From the NCBI RefSeq assembly GCF_943181405.1, contig NZ_CALPBY010000002.1, positions 310,001 through 374,000 on the forward strand: a stretch of 64,000 bases of DNA. The letters are read 5' to 3'. Below, piece by piece: positions 19,350 through 31,351 of the stretch. Every line of letters starts with the position of its first letter. Position 1 is the stretch's first letter. Below the pieces are notes generated by a model. That model made no database searches, had not been told where the DNA came from, and worked only from the letters and a program-made list of their open reading frames with translations. The DNA comes from Cellulosimicrobium sp. Marseille-Q4280 (lineage in GTDB: Bacteria > Actinomycetota > Actinomycetes > Actinomycetales > Cellulomonadaceae). The position numbers and the translations under genes were made by a program.

Positions 19350-19362
19350 TGCTGATGCTCGG

Positions 19363-19434
19363 TGGGCGATACTGGGATCGAACCAGTGACCTCTTCCGTG
19401 TCAGGGAAGCGCGCTACCGCTGCGCCAATCGCCC
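19363..19434 (-). tRNA. tRNA-Val (GAC), copy 1
   Basis: 72 nt with an intact cloverleaf: acceptor GGGCGAT, anticodon stem CTTCC/GGAAG with loop CTGACAC giving anticodon GAC, and T-loop GTTCGATC. No encoded CCA. Last gene of the downstream Gly-Cys-Val triad, and identical to the copy at 19891-19962. Confidence 0.97.
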
Positions 19435-19475
19435 GAGTGGCAACCCCGAGGAGTGCTTCAGGGTTGCTGCTCGCG

Positions 19476-19546
19476 AGGTGGAGATGGGATTCGAACCCAC
19501 GTATACGGCTTTGCAGGCCGCTGCCTCGCCTCTCGGCCACTCCACC
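19476..19546 (-). tRNA. tRNA-Cys (GCA), copy 1
   Basis: 71 nt; acceptor GGTGGAG paired with CTCCACC, anticodon loop CTGCAAA giving GCA, T-loop GTTCGAAT. Identical to 19998-20068. The 41-bp spacer to tRNA-Val contains a GCAACCC/GGGTTGC hairpin that may guide processing. Confidence 0.97.
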
Positions 19547-19601
19547 GTGAGACACGTCCTCTCTCTCGCTCTCGAGAGAGCCGGTCTGAGAAGGGCCTCC
19601 G

Positions 19602-19674
19602 AGCGGATGACGGGATTCGAACCCGCGACCCTCACCTTGGCAAGGTGATGCTCTACCAACTGAGCCACATCCGC
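19602..19674 (-). tRNA. tRNA-Gly (GCC), copy 1
   Basis: 73 nt; acceptor GCGGATG paired with CATCCGC, anticodon loop TTGCCAA giving GCC, T-loop GTTCGAAT. First gene of its triad, with its own -10-like TAGTAT at 19754-19759. Identical to 20117-20189. Confidence 0.97.
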
Positions 19675-19753
19675 GCGGCCGGACTGTCGGAGGACGTCGA
19701 TCGAGACTCGAAGGTCGAGAGATCGTGCGTACCCGGCGTTCCGGCGCGTCCAC

Positions 19754-19759
19754 ATACTA
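19754..19759 (-). promoter_or_regulatory. -10 box of the downstream tRNA triad
   Basis: TAGTAT on the minus strand, 80 bp before tRNA-Gly copy 1. The same hexamer precedes the tRNA-Val(CAC) gene at 22490. A conserved GGACGCGCCGGAACGCCG-type segment follows it and also follows the promoter of the other triad. Confidence 0.5.
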
Positions 19760-19846
19760 GCCGACTTTCGGCCGAGTTCCCGCATCCGGGGGGCACGTCG
19801 GTGTGCGGTGGGCTACGCGCGCGTGCACCCGGCCCGAGGGACGCGA

Positions 19847-19877
19847 AAGGCCGCCCCGGTCATGCCGGGACGGCCTT
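19847..19877 (-). terminator. Terminator after the upstream tRNA triad
   Basis: Minus strand AAGGCCGTCCCGGC, short loop, then ACCGGGGCGGCCTTT. A strong hairpin with a short T run that separates the two triads into two transcription units. Confidence 0.7.
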
Positions 19878-19890
19878 CGTGTCGTGCTGG

Positions 19891-19962
19891 TGGGCGATAC
19901 TGGGATCGAACCAGTGACCTCTTCCGTGTCAGGGAAGCGCGCTACCGCTGCGCCAATCGCCC
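19891..19962 (-). tRNA. tRNA-Val (GAC), copy 2
   Basis: 72 nt, base-for-base identical to the copy at 19363-19434, anticodon GAC. Third gene of the upstream triad. Confidence 0.97.
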
Positions 19963-19997
19963 AGGTGGTCCTGCAGGTGGTGCTGGTACTGCGTAGG

Positions 19998-20068
19998 AGG
20001 TGGAGATGGGATTCGAACCCACGTATACGGCTTTGCAGGCCGCTGCCTCGCCTCTCGGCCACTCCACC
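19998..20068 (-). tRNA. tRNA-Cys (GCA), copy 2
   Basis: 71 nt, identical to 19476-19546, anticodon GCA. The spacers on both sides differ from those of the first triad. Confidence 0.97.
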
Positions 20069-20116
20069 GCGACCTGCTCCGACGCCCCCGAGGGAGCCGT
20101 CGAGAGTGGGCCTCCG

Positions 20117-20189
20117 AGCGGATGACGGGATTCGAACCCGCGACCCTCACCTTGGCAAGGTGATGCTCTACCAACTGAGCCACATCCGC
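20117..20189 (-). tRNA. tRNA-Gly (GCC), copy 2
   Basis: 73 nt, identical to 19602-19674, anticodon GCC. First gene of the upstream triad. Confidence 0.97.
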
Positions 20190-22693: not shown

Positions 22694-23371
22694 TCAGGAC
22701 GTCGGGACGAGGACGCCGTCCAGAACGTCGGGCAGGTCGGCGACGCTGTCGACGACGTGCGTGTGCGGCGCCGCCTCGAGGACGTCACGTGGCACGCCGC
22801 CGCTGAGGACGCCGACCACGAGTCCCGCACCCGCGTTGGTCCCGGCCTCGAGGTCCAGCACGGTGTCGCCGACCGTGAGCACCTGCCGCACGTCGGTGAC
22901 GCCCGTGCGCTCCATCGCGCGGAAGACCATGTAGGGCGCGGGCCGCCCGGCCGGGACGTCGTCGGTGGTCACGACGGCGTCGACGACGCCGTCCTGCCAG
23001 CCGAGACGCTCGAGCAGGAGCCCGGTCACGTCGGCGGAGAACCCCGTGGTGAGGGCGATCCTCGCGCCGAGCCCGCGCAGCACGGCGAACGCGTCGAGGA
23101 CGCCCGGCATGGGGACGGGCGGGTCGGCGTCGTACGCCTCGCGCAGGAGGCGCTCGAAGTCGACGAAGGTCTTCTCGACGGCGGACGTGTCGCCCCCGAG
23201 CTCGAGCAGGGCGCGGATGGCGGTGCGCTTGTCCGCGCCCATCCAGCGTGCGACGTCGGTGACGGTGGCGGAGCTGCCGTGCCGGGCCACGGCGTCGTGC
23301 AGCGCGCGGTAGACGGCGCTGCCCTCCTCGACGGTGGTGCCGGCGACGTCCAGGGCGGCGAGTGCGATCAC
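22694..23371 (-). CDS. Phosphonatase-like HAD hydrolase (PhnX-like)
   Basis: A 225-residue HAD-superfamily hydrolase of the phosphonatase branch. The nucleophile motif is LDVAGTTVEEG (Asp8), with Ala where most HADs have a second Asp, as in phosphonoacetaldehyde hydrolase. The cap has RWMGADKRTAIRALLE; Lys48 aligns with the PhnX lysine that forms a Schiff base with phosphonoacetaldehyde. Motifs II and III are LTTGFSAD and GRPAPYMVFRAME, and the acidic motif IV is TVGDTVLDLEAG. GTG start with GGAAGGA upstream. It lies 57 bp after the FAD oxidoreductase and is probably co-transcribed. Expected reaction: C-P cleavage of phosphonoacetaldehyde; substrate inferred. Confidence 0.85.
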   Translation of the reverse strand: MIALAALDVAGTTVEEGSAVYRALHDAVARHGSSATVTDVARWMGADKRTAIRALLELGGDTSAVEKTFVDFERLLREAYDADPPVPMPGVLDAFAVLRGLGARIALTTGFSADVTGLLLERLGWQDGVVDAVVTTDDVPAGRPAPYMVFRAMERTGVTDVRQVLTVGDTVLDLEAGTNAGAGLVVGVLSGGVPRDVLEAAPHTHVVDSVADLPDVLDGVLVPTS

Positions 23372-23428
23372 GGTGTGGTTCCTTCCGAGGGTGTGCGGGG
23401 TCGTGGTGCGGCGGGTGCGTGCGGTCCG

Positions 23429-24619
23429 TCAGGCGCCCGGGGCCGGCTCGGCCCGATCGGGCTCGACGTGGTCGAGGCCCGCGCGGTCGAGCACCTCGAC
23501 GGCGAGGCCGAGGCCGGTCGTCATGCCGATGCCCGTGGTGAGCGTGGCGACGTGGACGCCGGGCTCGGGCTCGGCGAGGAGGACCTCCCGGTCGGGGGCG
23601 GTCGCGTAGGTGCCCTGCCAGCGCTCGACGACGCGCAGGTCGTCGCGGCCGAGCAGGTCGGTCCCGAGGCGCAGCAGGACGTCGTAGCCGGCCTCGTCCT
23701 GGAACACGGGCGCGTCGACGTCGCGCACGTGCGTGTCGCCGAGGATCAGGGTCCCGTCCTCCTGCGGGGTGGTCATGAGGTTGACGTCCCACGCGGCCCC
23801 GTCGGGGTCCGCCGCGGCGAGCTCGGCGGCGACGTCCGCCGCGGACGGGCACGCCGCGAGCGCCGCGTACCGGACCGTCGACCAGCCGGTGAGGAGCGGC
23901 GTCGTGAGCGGGATCCGTGAGCCGGGCCGGACGCGCAGCATGTGCAGGCGGCACCTGCGGAGCCCGGCGTGGGCAGCGACGTCGGGCAGGAGCCGGTCGA
24001 GGTCGTGGTGCGTCGCGACGACGACGAGGTCTGCCGTCAGCGTGCCGCGGGTCGTCTCGACGCGGCCGGTCGACACCGCGCGCGCCGCGGTGCGCCACAG
24101 GAACCGCACGCCGTGCGCCTCGAGCCACGCGGCGAGCGCCGGCGCAGCCGACCGCGGGTCGACCTGCAGGTCGAGCGGGAGGAACGCGCCACCGACCACG
24201 GCGTCCGGTCGCACGGGCAGGACCGCGCGGACGTCGCCGGCGTCGAGGAGGCGTACCTCGTCGTCGCCGCGCTGCTCGGCGAGCTCCGCGAGCAGGCGCA
24301 TCTCGGCGGCCGTCCGGGCGACGACGTGCGTCCCCGTCCGCGCGACCCGGAAGCCCGCGGCTGCGCCGAGCGCGAGCCAGCGTTCGCGCGCGGCGAGCGC
24401 GTACGCCCGGGCCTGCCCGGCCTGGGCCGTCACGCACACGTGGCCGAAGTTCTGGACGGACGAGCCGACGACGCCCGCCGCCTGCTCGACCACGGTCACG
24501 CGGTGGCCGCGCCGGTGCGCCTCGGCGGCCACGCCGAGGCCGACGACGCCTGCGCCGACCACGACGACGTGCTGACCGCGGTACGACGCACTGCGCCCCT
24601 CGGGGGAGATCGTGCTCAT
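23429..24619 (-). CDS. FAD-dependent amine oxidoreductase, phosphonate-associated type
   Basis: A 396-residue D-amino-acid-oxidase-like flavoprotein. The dinucleotide motif VVGAGVVGLG is at residues 21-30, followed by HRVTVVEQ and SSVQNFGHV; the C-terminal FAD segment is TLTTGIGMTTGLGLAVE. It resembles the family that TIGRFAMs describes as a phosphonate-catabolism FAD oxidoreductase (TIGR03364). Placed next to a PhnX-like hydrolase, it could oxidise 2-aminoethylphosphonate or an N-alkyl derivative to phosphonoacetaldehyde, replacing the PhnW transaminase. ATG with GAGAGGA upstream. A PHO-box-like sequence lies in the divergent region. Substrate is inferred from context. Confidence 0.8.
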   Translation of the reverse strand: MSTISPEGRSASYRGQHVVVVGAGVVGLGVAAEAHRRGHRVTVVEQAAGVVGSSVQNFGHVCVTAQAGQARAYALAARERWLALGAAAGFRVARTGTHVVARTAAEMRLLAELAEQRGDDEVRLLDAGDVRAVLPVRPDAVVGGAFLPLDLQVDPRSAAPALAAWLEAHGVRFLWRTAARAVSTGRVETTRGTLTADLVVVATHHDLDRLLPDVAAHAGLRRCRLHMLRVRPGSRIPLTTPLLTGWSTVRYAALAACPSAADVAAELAAADPDGAAWDVNLMTTPQEDGTLILGDTHVRDVDAPVFQDEAGYDVLLRLGTDLLGRDDLRVVERWQGTYATAPDREVLLAEPEPGVHVATLTTGIGMTTGLGLAVEVLDRAGLDHVEPDRAEPAPGA

Positions 24620-24645
24620 GGTGTCCTCTCAGTGCCGCGGGCGGC

Positions 24646-24667
24646 GTTCACCTGCGGGCCATCCGGC
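24646..24667 (+). promoter_or_regulatory. PHO-box-like direct repeat
   Basis: GTTCACCTGCG followed directly by GGCCATCCGGC. The first 11-mer has the exact GTTCACC core of the actinobacterial PhoP box; the second matches six of seven positions allowing G/T at position 2. It overlaps the expected -35 region of the GntR gene (-10 TACGGT at 24673-24678), the usual place for PhoP activation. Confidence 0.5.
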
Positions 24668-24684
24668 CCGGGTACGGTCCGCGC

Positions 24685-25392
24685 GTGACCAGGTCGACCG
24701 AGATCGTGCGCGTGCTGTCCGACGAGCTGACCCGCCTCCCGTCCGGGAGCCGGGTCGCGTCGGAGGCGGACGTCGGGCGCCGGTTCGGCGTCGGCCGCGC
24801 CGCCGCCCGGGCGGCGCTCGAGGAGCTCGAGCGCCGCATGCTCGTGAGCCGCATCCAGGGCGTCGGCACGTTCACGCGGCGTCGGGTCGACTACCTCGTC
24901 GCGCCGGGCCGCGCCCCGTCGTGGAGCCGGACCCTGCGGGAGGCCGGGGCGACACCTCGCACGGTCGTCCTCGCGTGCGACGAGGTGCCGCTGCCCGACG
25001 ACGTCGCCGCGGCGCTCGCCTGCGCGGCGGGCACGCCGGGGTTCCGCCTGGTCCGCCGGTCGTTCATCGACGGCATGCCCGCGGCCTGGGGCGTGGAGTG
25101 GCTGGCGACGAGCCTCGTGCCGGAGCTGCCCGCCGCCCTGCGGCACGAGGAGTCGCTCGACGCGATCCTCCGCTCGACGGCACGCGTGCTGCCGGAGCGC
25201 GCGTGGACGCGCGCCAGCATGGAGTCCGCGCCGGAGGAGGCGAGCACGGGCCTCGGCTGCCGGCCCGGCGACCCGGCGTGGCTCATCGCGAGCCTCGCGC
25301 GCGACGCCGTGGACGGGCGTCCGCTGCTGTCGACCGAGCGGTGGGTGCGCGCGGACGCGGTGCGGGTCGTCGTCGAGCTCGGCGAGGGCTGA
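24685..25392 (+). CDS. GntR/HutC-family transcriptional regulator
   Basis: A 235-residue regulator. The N-terminal winged helix contains SGSRVASEADVGRRFGVGRA and LEELERRMLVSRIQGVGTFT, the standard GntR pattern, followed by a UTRA-type ligand-binding domain (FRLVRRSFIDGMPAAWGVEW; LLSTERWVRADAVRVV). The GTG lies 6 nt after TACGGT with no Shine-Dalgarno, so leaderless. Divergent from the FAD oxidoreductase and convergent with the alcohol dehydrogenase, so it likely controls the phosphonate genes in response to a phosphonate or its product. It ends in a GAGGGC/GCCCTC hairpin at 25384-25399. Confidence 0.9.
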   Translation: MTRSTEIVRVLSDELTRLPSGSRVASEADVGRRFGVGRAAARAALEELERRMLVSRIQGVGTFTRRRVDYLVAPGRAPSWSRTLREAGATPRTVVLACDEVPLPDDVAAALACAAGTPGFRLVRRSFIDGMPAAWGVEWLATSLVPELPAALRHEESLDAILRSTARVLPERAWTRASMESAPEEASTGLGCRPGDPAWLIASLARDAVDGRPLLSTERWVRADAVRVVVELGEG

Positions 25393-25421
25393 GGCCCTCC
25401 GTACCCGGACGCCGTGCCGGC

Positions 25422-26477
25422 TCACGGGGCCACCGCCGTGCGGGGCGCGGCGGCGGGCGGCCCGGTGAGAAGCGCGCCGACCGAGGCGAGGTCGACGGCC
25501 GGGGTCACGAGCTCGTGCCACGGGGCGACGTCCCGGGTCCGGGAGAGCAGGTCGAGGGCGGCGCGCAGGTGGTGCGGCTCGTAGTTGTGCACCCCGGTGA
25601 CCGTGAGCCAGCCGCGCACGACCCGTTCGGGGTCGAGCGGCACCTCGGGGCCGGGCGCCACGGAGCCGGCGAGGACCAGACGACCGCCGACGTCGAGGAC
25701 GTCGAGCGCGCGAGCGACCGCGGTGCTCGCGCCCGACAGCTCGATCGCGACGTCGACGAGGCCGACGGGTTCGTCCGTGGCGCGCGCGGACGTCGCGCCG
25801 AACCGGAGCGCGAGGCCGCGGCGGCCGGGGTCGGGGTCGGTCACGACGATCTCCGCCGCCCCCGCGTCCCGCGCCGCCGCGACGGCCGTGATGCCGAGCA
25901 TCCCGGCGCCGCTGACGAGCACGCGCCGTCCCTCGAGCGGTCCTGCCGCCTCGACGGCCGCCATGACGGTCGCGGTCGCGCAGCCCGCGGGCGCCGCGAC
26001 CGCGTCGGGCAGGCCGTCGGGCACCCGGGCGAGCGTCGCGCCGTCGGGCAGGACGACGTGGCGCGCGTAGGTGCCGCTGAGCGGCCACTCGGACGCGAAC
26101 GCCTCGTGCCCCACCTTGCGGACCGCACGGCACTTCGCGCTGCGGCCGGTGAGGCAGCGGTCGCACGCGCCGCACGCCACGGTCACGCCCCACACGACGC
26201 GGTCGCCCACGGCGAGCGGCACGCCGTCGTCGGCGAGCGGGGCGTCCGGGCCGAGGCGGACCACGTCGCCGACGGCCTCGTGCCCGAGGACCGACGGGGC
26301 GGGCGCCGACCGGCGCCCCGACACGGTGTGCCGGTCGCTGCCGCACACGGTCGTGAGGCGGACGCGGACGAGGACCTCGCGCGGCTTGAGATCGGGCAGC
26401 GGGACCTCGGTCAGACGGACCACGTCACCGCCCTCCCAGAGCGCGACGGTGGTCAGGTCAGCTGTGCGCGGATCCAT
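25422..26477 (-). CDS. Zinc-dependent alcohol dehydrogenase, phosphonate-associated (HpnZ-like)
   Basis: A 351-residue medium-chain dehydrogenase. The catalytic zinc site includes VCGSDRHTV and VLGHEAVGDVV; the structural zinc loop is CGACDRCLTGRSAKC; the NAD(P) fold has VLVSGAGMLGITAVAAARD. Its place in the phn operon matches the TIGRFAMs phosphonate-associated alcohol dehydrogenase (HpnZ_proposed, TIGR03366), whose substrate is unknown. The ATG at 26477 lies inside the 3' end of the permease gene (25-bp overlap), so translation is coupled. It could oxidise a hydroxyalkylphosphonate or handle the aldehyde product. Confidence 0.85.
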   Translation of the reverse strand: MDPRTADLTTVALWEGGDVVRLTEVPLPDLKPREVLVRVRLTTVCGSDRHTVSGRRSAPAPSVLGHEAVGDVVRLGPDAPLADDGVPLAVGDRVVWGVTVACGACDRCLTGRSAKCRAVRKVGHEAFASEWPLSGTYARHVVLPDGATLARVPDGLPDAVAAPAGCATATVMAAVEAAGPLEGRRVLVSGAGMLGITAVAAARDAGAAEIVVTDPDPGRRGLALRFGATSARATDEPVGLVDVAIELSGASTAVARALDVLDVGGRLVLAGSVAPGPEVPLDPERVVRGWLTVTGVHNYEPHHLRAALDLLSRTRDVAPWHELVTPAVDLASVGALLTGPPAAAPRTAVAP

Positions 26478-28099
26478 CCGGAGAGCCTCTCGATGAGCAG
26501 GACGACGACGAACACGAGGAGGACGATCCCGCCGGCCACCTCGAAGTGGAGGGTGCGGATCGCTTCGAAGAGCAGGAAGCCGACGCCGCCCGCGCCGACG
26601 ATCCCGAGGATCGTGGACGTGCGGATGTTGACGTCCAGGAGGTAGAGCGACGACCCGACGATCGACGGCATGCCCTGCGGGAGGACGGCGGAGAACAGGA
26701 CCTTCCACCACCCGCCGCCCACGGAGCGCACGGCCTCGGCGGCGTCGGTCGGGATCTCCTCGACGGCGTCGGCGACGAGCTTGCCGAGGAAGCCGATCGA
26801 CCCGATACCGAGCGCCATCGCGCCCGCGACGGGGCCGAGCCCGACCGCCGCGACGAACACGACCGCGAGGATGAGCTCGGGGATCGCGCGGACGACGAGG
26901 ATCGTCGTGCGCGCCGCCGCGTGGACCACGGGGTGGGGCGCGACCGTCCGTGCCGCCAGGAGGCCGAGCGGGAGCGACAGCACGACGCCGATCCCCGTGG
27001 CGACGAGCCCGATCGCGAGCGTCTGGAGCATCGCCTCCCACAGCGCCGGGCCGAGCGACGTGAGGTCGGGGGGGAACATCCGGCCGGCGACCGCGAACAG
27101 GTCCGGTATCGAGGTGACGAGCTCGCGCGGGTCGATGTCGAGCCGGACGAACGAGAAGACCGTGAGAGCGAGCGCTGCTGCGCCCGACGCGAGGCGCACC
27201 ACCCGGTCGCGGTGGTAGCGCGGTCGGCGCGGCGCGAGCAGCGAGCGGCGGATCGCCATGGACACCAGCTCCATGGCGGCCACCAGGACGAGGATCACGG
27301 CGACGATCCCGAGCGCCTTCGGGTACACGAGGCCGCGCAGGGCGTCCTGCAGCGCGAACCCGATGCCGCCGGCCCCGACGAACCCGAGCACGACCGACGT
27401 GCGGAGGTTGATGTCGACGCGGTAGACGAACGCCGAGACCCACGCCGGCACCACCTGGGGCACGACGCCGTTGAGCAGCTCGCGCAGCCGCCCGACGCCC
27501 ACGCTGCGGACCGCCTCGCGCGGGCCGGGGTCGGCGTCCTCGATCGCGTCGGCGAAGAGCTTGCCGAGCATCCCGACGGAGTGCAGCGCGAGCGCGAGGA
27601 CGCCCGGCAGGACGCCGAGACCCAGCGCCCGCACGAAGAGCACGGCGAACACCAGGTCCGGCACGGCGCGGCAGAACGTGATGACGCCGCGGGCGAGCGT
27701 GGCGACCAGGGGGTGCGGCGTCGTCGTGCGGGCGGCGAGGAACGCGAGCGGCACCGACAGGACCGTGGCGAGCACGGTGCCGAGGAACGCCATGAGGACC
27801 GTGTCGAGGGCGAGCGTCGCGACGCGGGCCGGGTCGTCGAGGCGCGGCGGCATCATCCGCTCGACGAGGTTCGCCACGTCCTCGCCGCCCGCGACGAGGG
27901 TCGGGAGGTCGAGGCCGATCGACGACGCCGCGCCGAGCGTGAGCAGCACCGACCCGCCGGCGAGCCAGCGCAGCGTGCGCTGCTGCCGGGTGGGCCGGGG
28001 CCGGACGGGGAACCTGCCCCCGGACCGGTCGTCCCCGTGCGGCGTGGACCGCGACGGTGCAGGCAGCGGCCGGTGGGGCGCCGGGGCCGGGGCCGTCAC
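26453..28099 (-). CDS. phnE: Phosphonate ABC transporter permease, two PhnE domains fused
   Basis: A 548-residue inner-membrane protein with two successive BPD_transp_1 units. Unit 1 (about 40-290) contains EDADPGPREAVRSVGVGRLR and VDINLRTSVVLGFVGAGGIG; unit 2 (about 295-545) contains the parallel EEIPTDAAEAVRSVGGGWWK and LDVNIRTSTILGIVGAGGVG. The repeats are the coupling (EAA-like) loops. Phosphonate permeases are often separate PhnE1 and PhnE2, so one chain replaces the heterodimer. The N-terminal 45 residues are Pro/Arg-rich and cytosolic. GTG start overlaps the phnC stop as GTGA. Confidence 0.92.
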   Translation of the reverse strand: MTAPAPAPHRPLPAPSRSTPHGDDRSGGRFPVRPRPTRQQRTLRWLAGGSVLLTLGAASSIGLDLPTLVAGGEDVANLVERMMPPRLDDPARVATLALDTVLMAFLGTVLATVLSVPLAFLAARTTTPHPLVATLARGVITFCRAVPDLVFAVLFVRALGLGVLPGVLALALHSVGMLGKLFADAIEDADPGPREAVRSVGVGRLRELLNGVVPQVVPAWVSAFVYRVDINLRTSVVLGFVGAGGIGFALQDALRGLVYPKALGIVAVILVLVAAMELVSMAIRRSLLAPRRPRYHRDRVVRLASGAAALALTVFSFVRLDIDPRELVTSIPDLFAVAGRMFPPDLTSLGPALWEAMLQTLAIGLVATGIGVVLSLPLGLLAARTVAPHPVVHAAARTTILVVRAIPELILAVVFVAAVGLGPVAGAMALGIGSIGFLGKLVADAVEEIPTDAAEAVRSVGGGWWKVLFSAVLPQGMPSIVGSSLYLLDVNIRTSTILGIVGAGGVGFLLFEAIRTLHFEVAGGIVLLVFVVVLLIERLSGWIRAQLT

Positions 28100-28944
28100 G
28101 CGCTCGCCCCGACGGCCACGGGCTCGGCCGGCGTCCCGGGCGCGACCCGCCGGTAGATCGCCATGGCCTCGTCCTTGGTGAGCCCCGCGGCGGGGCGGTC
28201 GAGCACCTTCTCGCCGTGCCGCAGACCGACGAGGCGGTCCGCCCAGCCGAGCGCCAGGTCGACCTGGTGCAGGGTGCACACCACGGTGAGCCCTTCCTCG
28301 GCGCACACCCGGACGAACAGGTCCATCACCGCACCCGCGTTCTCGGGGTCGAGCGACGCGACCGGCTCGTCCGCGAGGACGAGCTGCGGGCGCTGCATGA
28401 GCGTGCGCGCGATCGCGACACGCTGCTGCTGCCCGCCGGAGAGCGTGTCCGCGCGCTGGTACGCCTGGTCGGCGAGGCCGACGCGCTCGATGTGGGCCAG
28501 CGCCTCCTCGCGCATCCGGCGCGGGTACGTCGCGATGCCGTACCGCGGCCCGCGCACGCGACCCAGGCCGCCGACGAGCACGTTCTCCAGGCACGTGAGC
28601 CGCCCGACGAGGTTGAACTGCTGGAACACAAAGCCCACGTCGGTGCGCAGCCGGCGCAGCTCGCGCGACGACGCGCGGTCGACGCGCGTTCCGGCCACCT
28701 CGACCTCCCCCGAGGTCGGGCGGTGCAGCCCGTTGAGGCAGCGCAGGAGCGTCGACTTGCCCGAGCCCGAGAGACCGAGCAGGACGAGCAGCTCGCCGCG
28801 CGCGACGTCGAGGTCGACCCCCGCGAGGGCCGTCGTCCCGTCGAACTCCTTGACGAGACCACGGACCCTCACGAGGGGCTCGCCCGCCGTCGGACCTGCG
28901 GGGGGACCGGGGACGGTACTGCCCGCGGTGGTCGTCGTGGGCAC
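28096..28944 (-). CDS. phnC: Phosphonate ABC transporter ATP-binding protein
   Basis: A 282-residue ABC ATPase powering import with PhnE. Walker A GLSGSGKST, Q-loop VFQQFNLVGRLT, signature LSGGQQQRVAIARTL, Walker B LVLADEPVASLDPE and H-loop CTLHQVD are all present. The QQFNLVGRLTxxENVLVG segment and the C-terminal DEAMAIYRR are typical of PhnC. GTG start 2 bp after phnD; the first about 25 residues are low-complexity Thr/Pro/Gly. Confidence 0.95.
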   Translation of the reverse strand: MPTTTTAGSTVPGPPAGPTAGEPLVRVRGLVKEFDGTTALAGVDLDVARGELLVLLGLSGSGKSTLLRCLNGLHRPTSGEVEVAGTRVDRASSRELRRLRTDVGFVFQQFNLVGRLTCLENVLVGGLGRVRGPRYGIATYPRRMREEALAHIERVGLADQAYQRADTLSGGQQQRVAIARTLMQRPQLVLADEPVASLDPENAGAVMDLFVRVCAEEGLTVVCTLHQVDLALGWADRLVGLRHGEKVLDRPAAGLTKDEAMAIYRRVAPGTPAEPVAVGASA

Positions 28945-28946
28945 CG

Positions 28947-29927
28947 TCAGCCCTCGCACTTGTCGGACTTGGTGAGCGTGCAGACCTCGCGCGTGCCGTC
29001 GTAGTCGGCGTCCTCCGCCGGGGCGAAGCCCCACGCGTCCTCGTCCGTGAGCAGGCACTCGCCGTCGCAGAAGCCCTGCGACAGCAGGTACTCCGAGTTG
29101 GCCTTCTCCGTGATGAGCCCGGTCAGCGTGGCGATGCTCTCCTCGCCGAGCGCGTCGTTGCCGACGAACAGCGACCCCGAGATCTTCGGAGACTTCCAGA
29201 CCTCCTTGAGGTCGCCCTCGGCGAGGTCGCCGGCGGCGGGCAGCGTGTCCTCGACCATCGACTGCATCGCGAACCCGGCCTCGCAGTCGCCTGCGGCGAC
29301 GGCCAGCGCCGAGGCGTCGTGGCCGCCCGCGAAGACGGGCTGCACGCCCGCGGCGAGGTCCTTCTCCGTGCCGGACTCGATGACGCCGGCGTCGATGAGG
29401 CCCGAGCTCGGGTAGAGGAAGCCGGACGTCGAGCCGGGGTCGACGAAGCACACGCTGCGGCCCTCGAAGTCCTCGAGGTCGTCGATCTCGGCGTTGTCAC
29501 CCTGCGTGATGCCGAGCGAGTAGTAGCCGGGCTCGGCGCCCTCGGCCTCGATGACGGCGCCGAGCGGCGTGATCGCCGCGTCGTTGTGCGTCGCGATGAC
29601 GTAGGCGAACGAGCCGAGGAACGCGATGTCGACCTTGTCCGCGATGAGGCCCTCGATGACGCCCGCGTAGTCGGACGCCTGGCTCACCTCGACCGTGGAG
29701 CCGGTCTCCTCCTCGAGCATCGCGATGATCGGCTCGTAGCCGGCGGCGAGGTCGGTGGAGTTCTCGGCGGGGATCGCGCCGAGGCGCAGCACCTCGGGGA
29801 AGCCCGAGGTCGTCGTGGCGGCCTCGGACGCGTCCGACGCGGCGCTCGTCCCGCTGCACGCCGAGAGCGTGAGCGCCGTGACACCGGCGAGCGCCACGGC
29901 GGCGAAGGTGGTGGTGGTCGTCTTCAT
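28947..29927 (-). CDS. phnD: Phosphonate-binding lipoprotein
   Basis: A 326-residue periplasmic-type binding protein anchored as a lipoprotein: the signal peptide ends LTLSAC with the lipidated Cys at 24. The PhnD fold is shown by LRLGAIPAENSTDLAAGYEP, GLIADKVDIAFLGSFAYV, CFVDPGSTSGFLYPS and GDCEAGFAMQSMVED. Captures phosphonate or phosphite and hands it to PhnE. First gene of phnD-phnC-phnE-adh; GGAG lies 9 nt before the ATG. The upstream region holds PHO-box repeats at 30018-30054. Confidence 0.95.
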   Translation of the reverse strand: MKTTTTTFAAVALAGVTALTLSACSGTSAASDASEAATTTSGFPEVLRLGAIPAENSTDLAAGYEPIIAMLEEETGSTVEVSQASDYAGVIEGLIADKVDIAFLGSFAYVIATHNDAAITPLGAVIEAEGAEPGYYSLGITQGDNAEIDDLEDFEGRSVCFVDPGSTSGFLYPSSGLIDAGVIESGTEKDLAAGVQPVFAGGHDASALAVAAGDCEAGFAMQSMVEDTLPAAGDLAEGDLKEVWKSPKISGSLFVGNDALGEESIATLTGLITEKANSEYLLSQGFCDGECLLTDEDAWGFAPAEDADYDGTREVCTLTKSDKCEG

Positions 29928-30017
29928 GGGGTCGTCTCCGGTCGTGACGTCTTCGGGGGGCGTCCGGGGTGGCCGCCGTCGAGGAGTCTGGGAGAGCCGG
30001 GAGAACCGTCGGCCCTG

Positions 30018-30054
30018 GGACGGTGAACGGGGCATGAACGGTCGTTCACCGTCT
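30018..30054. promoter_or_regulatory. PHO box between phnD and phnM-like gene
   Basis: On the minus strand two adjacent 11-mers, GTTCATGCCCC (30029-30039) and GTTCACCGTCC (30018-30028), give the 11-nt periodic direct repeat of the actinobacterial PhoP box toward phnD. On the plus strand GTTCACCGTCT (30044-30054) faces the phnM-like gene. The outer parts form the inverted repeat GACGGTGAACG-N13-CGTTCACCGTC (30019-30053). The rest of the 155-bp gap shows no other clear signal. Confidence 0.65.
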
Positions 30055-30082
30055 CGCCAGGTCGTCCGGACAACATGCCGCC

Positions 30083-31351
30083 ATGCCCGCACCGACCGCT
30101 GCCACCGTCCCGTCCCGACCGGGAGGAGCCTCCGGCCGACCCGACGACGAGACCCGGGACGAGACGCGCGACGTGAGCCGCGCGCCGCGCGACTACACGC
30201 TCGACGACGTCGTCGCGGTGCTGCCCGACCGGGTCGTGGACGACGCCCGGGTCGTCGTGCGGGACGGCCTGGTCGTGGAGGTGGGCGTGGCCCCGCCCGG
30301 GAGCCGTGCGGAGCTGCACGGCGGGGGAGCCCTCTGCCTGCCCGGGCTCGTCGACGTGCACACCGACGTGCTCGGGCACGAGGCGCGCCCCCGTCCGGGC
30401 GCACGGCTACCGCTCGACCTCGCGGTCCGCACCGCGACCGACCGGCTCGCGACCGCCGGTGTCCTCACGGCGTTCCACGGCGTCGCCTACGGCGAGCGGA
30501 CGCCCGTCGGGCTGCCCGCGGGCGAGCCCGAGCCCGCGGAGGTGCTCGCGGCGCTCGCGGTCGACGCCGCGCACGAGGACGGCGCGCGGGTGCTCCACCG
30601 GGTCGACATCCGGTGCCCGTCCGCGGTCGCGACGCTGCGCGGCGTGCTGGGGGACCCGGGTCGGCGGGCGGACGGCGCACGCGGGGTTGCGCCGCTCGTG
30701 TCGCACGAGGATCACACGCCCGGCATCGGGCAGTACGCACGCGCCGAGACCATGGAGCGCTGGCTCGTCGAGCGCGCGGGCATGTCGTCGGCCGGCGCGC
30801 GCGAGCACGTCGCCCGCTGGCGCGCCGACCGCGAGGAGCGGTCCGAGGTCGCGGCCGCGACGCTCGACTGGCTCGGGTCGCTCGCCCGGGCGGGGCGGGT
30901 CCGGCTCGCCGGTCACGACCCCGAGACGGTCGAGGACGTCGAGGCGCTCGCGGCGCGCGGAGGCGCCGTCGCGGAGTTCCCGACGACGCTCGTCGCCGCC
31001 CGCGCGGCACGGGCCGCGGGCCTGTCGGTGGTGGCCGGTGCGCCGAACGTCGTGCGCGGGGCGTCGCACACCGCCAACGTGTCGGCCCGCGAGCTCGTCG
31101 CACTCGGCCTCGTCGACGGGCTCGCGTCGGACTACGTCCCGGCGACGATGCTCGCGGCGGTGGACGTCGTCGTGCGCGAGGGCCTGGCGACGCTGCCCCG
31201 CGCCGTCGCGCTCGTGACGTCGGGCCCGGCCCGGGCCGCGGGCCTCGACGACCGCGGCTCGCTCGTCCCGGGCGCCCGGGCGGACCTCGTCCTCGTGCGA
31301 CCGCGCGGCGGGTGGTCCTCGGTCGTCGCGACGCTGCGCTCGCGGCCCTGA
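30083..31351 (+). CDS. PhnM-like amidohydrolase
   Basis: A 422-residue metal-dependent hydrolase of the PhnM family, named for alpha-D-ribose 1-methylphosphonate 5-triphosphate diphosphatase of the C-P lyase pathway. Metal-site landmarks are VDVHTDVLGHEARPRPG near residue 92, VSHEDHTPGIGQYA and LASDYVPATML. The usual HTDNxxKH motif is altered (Val for Asn, the Lys missing). No phnGHIJKL genes are in the window, so a C-P lyase role is doubtful; it may act on another phosphonate conjugate. Divergent from phnD across the PHO box. The first 35 residues are low-complexity. Confidence 0.8.
   Translation: MPAPTAATVPSRPGGASGRPDDETRDETRDVSRAPRDYTLDDVVAVLPDRVVDDARVVVRDGLVVEVGVAPPGSRAELHGGGALCLPGLVDVHTDVLGHEARPRPGARLPLDLAVRTATDRLATAGVLTAFHGVAYGERTPVGLPAGEPEPAEVLAALAVDAAHEDGARVLHRVDIRCPSAVATLRGVLGDPGRRADGARGVAPLVSHEDHTPGIGQYARAETMERWLVERAGMSSAGAREHVARWRADREERSEVAAATLDWLGSLARAGRVRLAGHDPETVEDVEALAARGGAVAEFPTTLVAARAARAAGLSVVAGAPNVVRGASHTANVSARELVALGLVDGLASDYVPATMLAAVDVVVREGLATLPRAVALVTSGPARAAGLDDRGSLVPGARADLVLVRPRGGWSSVVATLRSRP

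Follow-up and report, generated by a model that had tools for sequence, protein, structure and literature searches.

Replacement of the transaminase PhnW by a flavin oxidase is already known, since the PbfD enzymes oxidize N-methyl-2-aminoethylphosphonate (N-methyl-AEP) and 2-aminoethylphosphonate (AEP) with O2 to phosphonoacetaldehyde (Zangelmi et al. 2023, PMC10590968). PbfD1, assayed in that study, is annotated as TIGR03364, and the source organism of PbfD2 apparently has no PhnW. The PbfD clusters carry phnX and come from proteobacteria and the FCB and PVC groups, with homologues outside phnWX/WYA clusters noted in Terrabacteria, mostly cyanobacteria (PMC10590968). Here we analyze an eight-gene phosphonate locus from Cellulosimicrobium sp. 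Marseille-Q4280 (contig NZ_CALPBY010000002.1, positions 310,001 to 374,000; this whole stretch of 64,000 nucleotides is called the window), which encodes the importer PhnCDE, a flavin adenine dinucleotide (FAD) dependent amine oxidase, a HAD hydrolase, a zinc alcohol dehydrogenase (ADH), a GntR regulator, and a PhnM-like amidohydrolase. It resembles the PbfD pathways in its TIGR03364 oxidase (for PbfD1, by family annotation), in the presumed delivery of phosphonoacetaldehyde to a phosphonatase, and in dispensing with PhnW; unlike the PbfD clusters it combines a TIGR03351 HAD with ADH and PhnM-like genes, in actinobacteria. The core of the locus is of a known kind, and the PhnM-like gene is its more unusual element. 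Given the published oxidases, the flavin oxidase in place of PhnW, under which a sequence-only reading of this DNA had titled the locus, is not new; what we consider new is the PhnM clade with its residue changes together with exchangeable entry enzymes.

Three other systems are close. With PhnWX the locus has in common the presumed intermediate and the lysine-dependent type of hydrolysis, and one genome of the family (G063; genomes of our sample are denoted G and named loci L) joins PhnW to this HAD type; the window genome differs in that its HAD is below the PhnX cut-off and that no PhnW reaches cut-off, the genome-wide best being 33 bits against 401, in line with its absence from the locus in the sequence-only reading. 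The C-P (carbon-phosphorus) lyase operon PhnCDEFGHIJKLM likewise has PhnCDE, GntR, and PhnM-like genes, whereas the window locus contains no other core gene and its PhnM-like protein is changed at residues 98 and 146. There was no PhnJ match in the window genome at E ≤ 1e-20, which rules out a C-P lyase elsewhere in the genome and bears out the earlier claim that no C-P lyase core is present. The phosphite locus ptxABCD is approached by eight named loci in which a PhnM of the same clade stands beside PhnCDE-like and phosphite-dehydrogenase-like genes, the last being absent from the window locus. Finally, phnM without phnIHG has been reported for many Arthrobacter strains (2021 review, PMC7866108), an earlier record of actinobacterial PhnM lacking the C-P lyase core, in passages that give no clade, residues, context, or function.

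The patterns detected are consistent with an accessory, probably phosphate-starvation-controlled cassette that takes phosphorus from two-carbon phosphonates by import, FAD oxidase, and HAD, with the ADH as a further entry and a repurposed PhnM, a proposal to which we assign a probability of roughly 0.8. PhnCDE would import the phosphonate; the FAD enzyme, with O2, would convert AEP and/or its N-methyl form to phosphonoacetaldehyde, ammonia or methylamine, and H2O2, replacing PhnW; and the HAD, using Asp8 as its nucleophile and forming a Schiff base via Lys48, would cleave phosphonoacetaldehyde to acetaldehyde and phosphate. The zinc ADH would most likely oxidize a hydroxyalkylphosphonate such as 2-hydroxyethylphosphonate, feeding the same hub, and the PhnM-like enzyme would derive from a C-P-lyase hydrolase and have been retained for a different substrate, which we guess to be an ester of the imported phosphonate. 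Families, catalytic residues, linkage, the lack of PhnW over cut-off and of PhnJ, and the PhnM clade with its residue changes can be read from the sequence itself; every substrate, the PHO control, and the roles of the ADH and PhnM-like enzyme are what we infer.

Oxidase and phosphonatase

The FAD enzyme scored 397 bits to TIGR03364 (cut-off 285.1) and the next family, glycine oxidase ThiO, only 69, which rules out a sarcosine or glycine oxidase identity. The HAD reached 260 bits for TIGR03351 (cut-off 218.9) as opposed to 115.9 for the PhnX family TIGR01422 (cut-off 220), so that a canonical PhnX identity is also ruled out; of the PhnX-like HAD foreseen by the sequence-only reading, the nucleophile motif and lysine are there and the PhnX profile match is not. 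Asp8-x-Ala-Gly-Thr-Thr, Lys48, and R143 were all found, and Lys48, which we take to be the Schiff-base lysine, aligned with a lysine of solved phosphonatases. The marks of TIGR03351 are presumably just these, i.e. the DxAGTT motif, a cap lysine, and an Arg replacing the usual Lys; no mention of this family was found in a search of open-licence papers. Lys48 is kept in 54 of the 55 other HAD rows aligned (a few being the same gene fetched twice), the exception, L133, having no FAD gene nearby, and is missing in 4 of 14 further rows without a nearby FAD gene that were aligned apart. With the ADH at 417 bits for TIGR03366 (HpnZ; cut-off 328.1), all three families named by the sequence-only reading are matched over their cut-offs, and the outcome that it had given as refuting, a best match to sarcosine or glycine oxidase, did not occur. 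The best reading is still the one first suggested, in which an oxidative deamination yields phosphonoacetaldehyde and the C-P bond of the latter is then cleaved. This core, a flavin-dependent oxidation of an aminoethylphosphonate and hydrolysis of the resulting phosphonoacetaldehyde, is well supported.

Linkage was evaluated in 296 genomes of the class, with counts taking no account of genome relatedness. TIGR03364 occurred in 44 (E ≤ 1e-60), TIGR03351 in 58 (E ≤ 1e-35; 37 over cut-off), and TIGR03366 over cut-off in 15. The HAD lay within 10 kb of the FAD gene at 42 of 45 FAD places and, conversely, 42 of 60 HAD places had a FAD gene near, 15 of the other 18 HADs scoring below cut-off. This linkage is not chance. 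The genome sample and the named loci overlap, G289/L140, G297/L142, G280/L203, G239/L141, and G065/L136 probably being the same strains.

Entry enzymes

In G063, a single genome from the same family, PhnW (456 bits, over cut-off) lies directly upstream of a TIGR03351 HAD (233 bits) and phnDCE, while TIGR03364 scores at best 55 bits; among 19 genomes examined it was the only one with PhnW over cut-off. To our knowledge the note to TIGR03351 holds that this clade is never found with PhnW, to which G063 would be an exception. Because PhnW is paired with this HAD, the HAD substrate is most simply phosphonoacetaldehyde, and because no oxidase is over cut-off there, oxidase and PhnW look interchangeable. 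At ADH places over cut-off the HAD was within 10 kb in 14 of 16 and the FAD gene in 11 of 16, and 3 of the 14 HAD-linked places are in genomes (G146, G111, and G289) with neither TIGR03364 nor PhnW over cut-off. The simplest reading of these genomes is that the ADH may make the aldehyde itself, perhaps from 2-hydroxyethylphosphonate, and so feed the same hub, which lends support to the earlier guess of more than one phosphonate substrate. This suggests a hydrolytic phosphonate pathway in which a single phosphonatase is supplied by exchangeable entry enzymes. 2-Hydroxyethylphosphonate was not oxidized by the published FAD enzymes (data not shown there; PMC10590968).

An alternative explanation, to which we allow about one chance in three, is that the ADH is a downstream aldehyde reductase rather than a second entry route. 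Zinc ADHs often act on small aldehydes, and the 11 of 16 ADH places with a FAD gene would suit such a step, but the three genomes pairing HAD and ADH would then require another source of aldehyde, and no ADH was found by tblastn in 31 of 44 other FAD loci, where a reductase is evidently not needed. We prefer the ADH as an entry enzyme.

Near one HAD and ADH pair lacking a FAD enzyme or PhnW, there were also an MFS transporter and a PhyH oxygenase (L115:6266-7051) related to methylphosphonate hydroxylase, at 276 bits (below the cut-off of 500).

The PhnM-like gene

The PhnM-like protein scored 285 bits to TIGR02318, below its cut-off of 390.55, and 273.5 to NF011984, over its 260. PhnM was detected in 13 of the 296 genomes (E ≤ 1e-30) and PhnJ in 6; of the 13, 6 have PhnJ and 7, including the source genome, lack it. 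An alignment-led scan with two peptide patterns added the best 80 of 130 loci, giving 81 PhnMs with that of the window. Of these, 60 belong to C-P lyase loci, 4 of which have HAD or HAD and FAD genes as well; 11 belong to loci with FAD and/or HAD genes but no C-P lyase, 8 have a dehydrogenase gene as neighbour, and 2 have neither. L166, L179, L194, L205, L206, L210, and L213, on short contigs, were counted as C-P lyase by hand; L170 was also classed as C-P lyase even though the PhnM copy used sits apart from the core. The context labels disregard a weak FAD match in L162 and a cluster-16 member in L159. PhnJ was not found in any of the 18 genomes searched that have FAD/HAD or phosphite-type loci (L208 and 17 from the clade described below), an absence that is weaker for the clade genomes that are metagenome-assembled, and was present in both genomes of the "neither" type.

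Phylogenetic analysis placed the window PhnM in a group of 18 rows (10 FAD/HAD, 8 phosphite-type) with an SH-aLRT support of 100 in a quick tree rooted on E. coli PhnM, and 100/100 in a careful unrooted tree containing 16 of the 18. The clade is nested among C-P-lyase PhnMs, the phosphite-type rows arise within the FAD/HAD rows, and the nearest named PhnM to that of the window is from Cellulosimicrobium funkei. C-P lyase genes are joined by HAD or HAD and FAD genes in three loci of the nearest C-P lyase group (L188, L197, and L199), plausibly an intermediate arrangement. Two further PhnJ-free cases, L208 (Ilumatobacter) and G168 (locus L108), fall outside the clade.

All 18 clade rows keep the motif residues H93, D95, R104, E209, D210, H211, H278, D279, E298, and D350. 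E209, which is Met in E. coli PhnM, marks the subfamily. The S-H-E-D-H motif was considered as a mark of solo PhnMs and dropped, since it is often present in PhnMs of this subfamily that are linked to C-P lyase. All 60 C-P-lyase rows have Glu at position 98 and 59 of the 60 have Arg at position 146, but none of the 18 clade rows has either; because these positions were chosen after ranking all alignment columns and the clade is one lineage, they point to altered constraint and do not prove a new substrate. Both residues are retained in L208 and G168, so losing C-P lyase is not by itself enough to produce the changes, and the idea that they occur in every PhnM from a PhnJ-free genome was dropped. 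Nor is the signature strict outside the subfamily, position 98 being Asp in E. coli PhnM and His in the C-P-lyase-linked PhnM of G322. A sequence search gave no close PhnM structure, only weak amidohydrolase matches.

Were the enzyme to hydrolyze ribose-1-phosphonate-5-triphosphate, its product would find no PhnJ in this genome. The gene looks like one that was retained and altered once the other parts of the C-P lyase pathway had gone. It is possible, though we would hold this only tentatively at somewhat under one chance in three, that this PhnM branch left C-P lyase to become a free-standing hydrolase of imported phosphonate esters (phosphite esters in the phosphite-dehydrogenase-linked relatives), feeding a hub with interchangeable entry by PhnW, the FAD oxidase, or a 2-hydroxyethylphosphonate dehydrogenase. 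That the gene is instead a neutral or decaying remnant of a lost C-P lyase operon is unlikely. Nesting among C-P-lyase PhnMs would be expected of a remnant, as would a related group that retains C-P lyase with HAD or HAD and FAD genes adjoining in three members, and the C-P-lyase residues of L208 and G168 may be listed on the same side; but the gene is intact, with every listed motif residue in 18 of 18 rows from 12 genera and two contexts, and it travels with the cassette. Literature searches turned up no report on the function of a PhnM lacking C-P lyase. The presence of phnM need not mean C-P lyase, and surveys listing phnM as a C-P lyase gene (one such: PMC11933879) could miscount these genomes.

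The phosphite-type loci (L141, L144-L148, L151, and L167) have the clade PhnM beside PhnCDE-like genes, GntR, and a phosphite-dehydrogenase-like gene, in genomes without PhnJ. The dehydrogenase of L146 matched solved phosphite dehydrogenases at 384 bits, versus 194 for the best other enzyme; it is the one of the eight compared with solved structures, two having been compared with NCBIfam (best family glyoxylate reductase, below cut-off) and the others assigned by cluster membership. In L208, Ilumatobacter nonamiensis, PhnM, a Phn-HD oxygenase-like gene (208 bits, just below the cut-off of 214.6), ADH, HAD, GntR, FAD, and PhnDCE genes share one locus. L179 is a further C-P lyase locus carrying HAD or HAD and FAD genes. 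In Jiangella asiatica the HAD and PhnM genes are separated by one for a PhoD-like phosphatase (L142:7699-9798), and L050 has a similar gene. A long PhnJ-like gene, likely a PhnJ-PhnK fusion, was present in 48 of the 81 PhnM loci (median 606 aa; L149-L211, e.g. L171:7372-9195).

Substrates

Several points weigh against the proposal as a whole. PbfD1 is 18-fold better on N-methyl-AEP than on AEP (PMC10590968), so the main substrate may be something other than plain AEP, and with the HAD below the PhnX cut-off a related aldehyde, such as a hydroxy form, is possible. The HAD of G289, one of the genomes cited for ADH entry, is below its own cut-off (211 vs 219); in G229, the ADH gene and phnDCE are on a different contig from the FAD and HAD genes; and the ADH might do no more than reduce the acetaldehyde released. 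Searches of open-licence papers gave no assay of this actinobacterial gene set.

Rather improbably, the true substrate could be 1-hydroxy-2-aminoethylphosphonate, which the FAD enzyme would convert to hydroxyphosphonoacetaldehyde, the HAD to glycolaldehyde, and the ADH would then reduce, the last two steps being presumably those of the TIGR03351 note. This would agree with the closer match of the HAD to TIGR03351 than to PhnX, and the hydroxy substrate is proposed for the FAD enzyme in the TIGR03364 description quoted in PMC10590968. Characterized PbfD enzymes, however, use N-methyl-AEP and AEP (PMC10590968), and G063 pairs a TIGR03351 HAD with PhnW, which makes phosphonoacetaldehyde from AEP. 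Least probable by far is that PhnCDE is a surrogate phosphate importer, as suggested for phnCDE without C-P lyase in Streptomyces (2021 review), with enzymes serving unrelated amine catabolism, given that the oxidase and the HAD both match families associated with phosphonates and that the lysine of phosphonatases is conserved in the latter. We retain the reading in which the oxidase turns an aminoethylphosphonate into phosphonoacetaldehyde, and the locus offers a direct test for TIGR03351 and TIGR03366, families with proposed functions only.

Gene layout, mobility, and control

The eight genes are intact and occupy exactly the coordinates originally given, from the HAD stop at 22694 to the PhnM-like stop at 31351 (open reading frame and coding calls, window). 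The importer genes and ADH gene form a minus-strand run followed by the FAD and HAD genes, the GntR gene stands on the plus strand between the two parts, and the PhnM-like gene diverges from phnD. PhnE matched at 511 bits in two stretches (cut-off 217), its start being at 27949 in the coding calls rather than the GTG given in Table 1; PhnC scored 287 bits (cut-off 266), and PhnD 166 bits for TIGR01098 (cut-off 112) and 168 for TIGR03431, below its cut-off of 261. The best profile for the regulator was PhnF, at 70 bits against a cut-off of 157.

Table 1. Features of the phosphonate locus, in window coordinates
Feature	Coordinates	Strand	Basis
Phosphonatase-like HAD hydrolase (TIGR03351), Asp8 and Lys48	22694..23371	-	profile, alignment
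FAD-dependent amine oxidase, TIGR03364 (HpnW; PbfD-like)	23429..24619	-	profile, literature
GntR/UTRA regulator, PhnF-like but below PhnF cut-off	24685..25392	+	profile, coding calls
Zinc alcohol dehydrogenase, TIGR03366 (HpnZ); start overlaps phnE end	25422..26477	-	profile, coding calls
PhnE, two fused permease domains	26453..28099	-	profile; GTG start picked by eye
PhnC ATPase (TIGR02315)	28096..28944	-	profile
PhnD-type phosphonate-binding protein	28947..29927	-	profile
PHO-box-like 11-nt direct repeat, upstream of phnD	30023..30039	-	pattern match
PhnM-like amidohydrolase, clade of genomes without PhnJ	30083..31351	+	profile, tree, residues

The locus is an accessory, movable cassette. 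It is flanked here by tRNA-Val and a CYTH/CHAD gene. These two are separated by 2.7 kb in sister species G007 and by 2.5 kb in sister species G032, with no cassette genes in between, while G049 and G065, of the same genus, have the same cassette in the same order elsewhere, with no match to this CYTH/CHAD protein at E ≤ 1e-20. The eight-gene order is also kept in Promicromonospora, and the PhnM-like gene moves with the rest. In the family sample TIGR03351 was present in 8 of 81 genomes, and in 3 of 6 of the genus, so the trait is patchy.

Control by phosphate starvation is probable from a putative PHO box upstream of phnD, which consists of two 11-nucleotide direct repeat units with GTTCA, presumably the PHO-box core. 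It was the sole exact match in the window to a PHO-type pattern written after the site had been seen, and with one mismatch allowed there were 2 matches versus 0.19 expected. The repeat overlaps an inverted repeat (arms 30019-30029 and 30043-30053). A GTGAAC pair at 11-nucleotide spacing was present upstream of PhnM in L135, L136, and L090, with a single copy in L137 and none in L138; 11-nucleotide units are described for the actinobacterial PHO box in a review.

A tRNA-Val, tRNA-Cys, and tRNA-Gly set occurs in two tandem copies at 19361-20189 (minus strand) of the window, and of the sister loci, L215 carries both sets complete, while in L216 five of the six genes precede the end of the locus.

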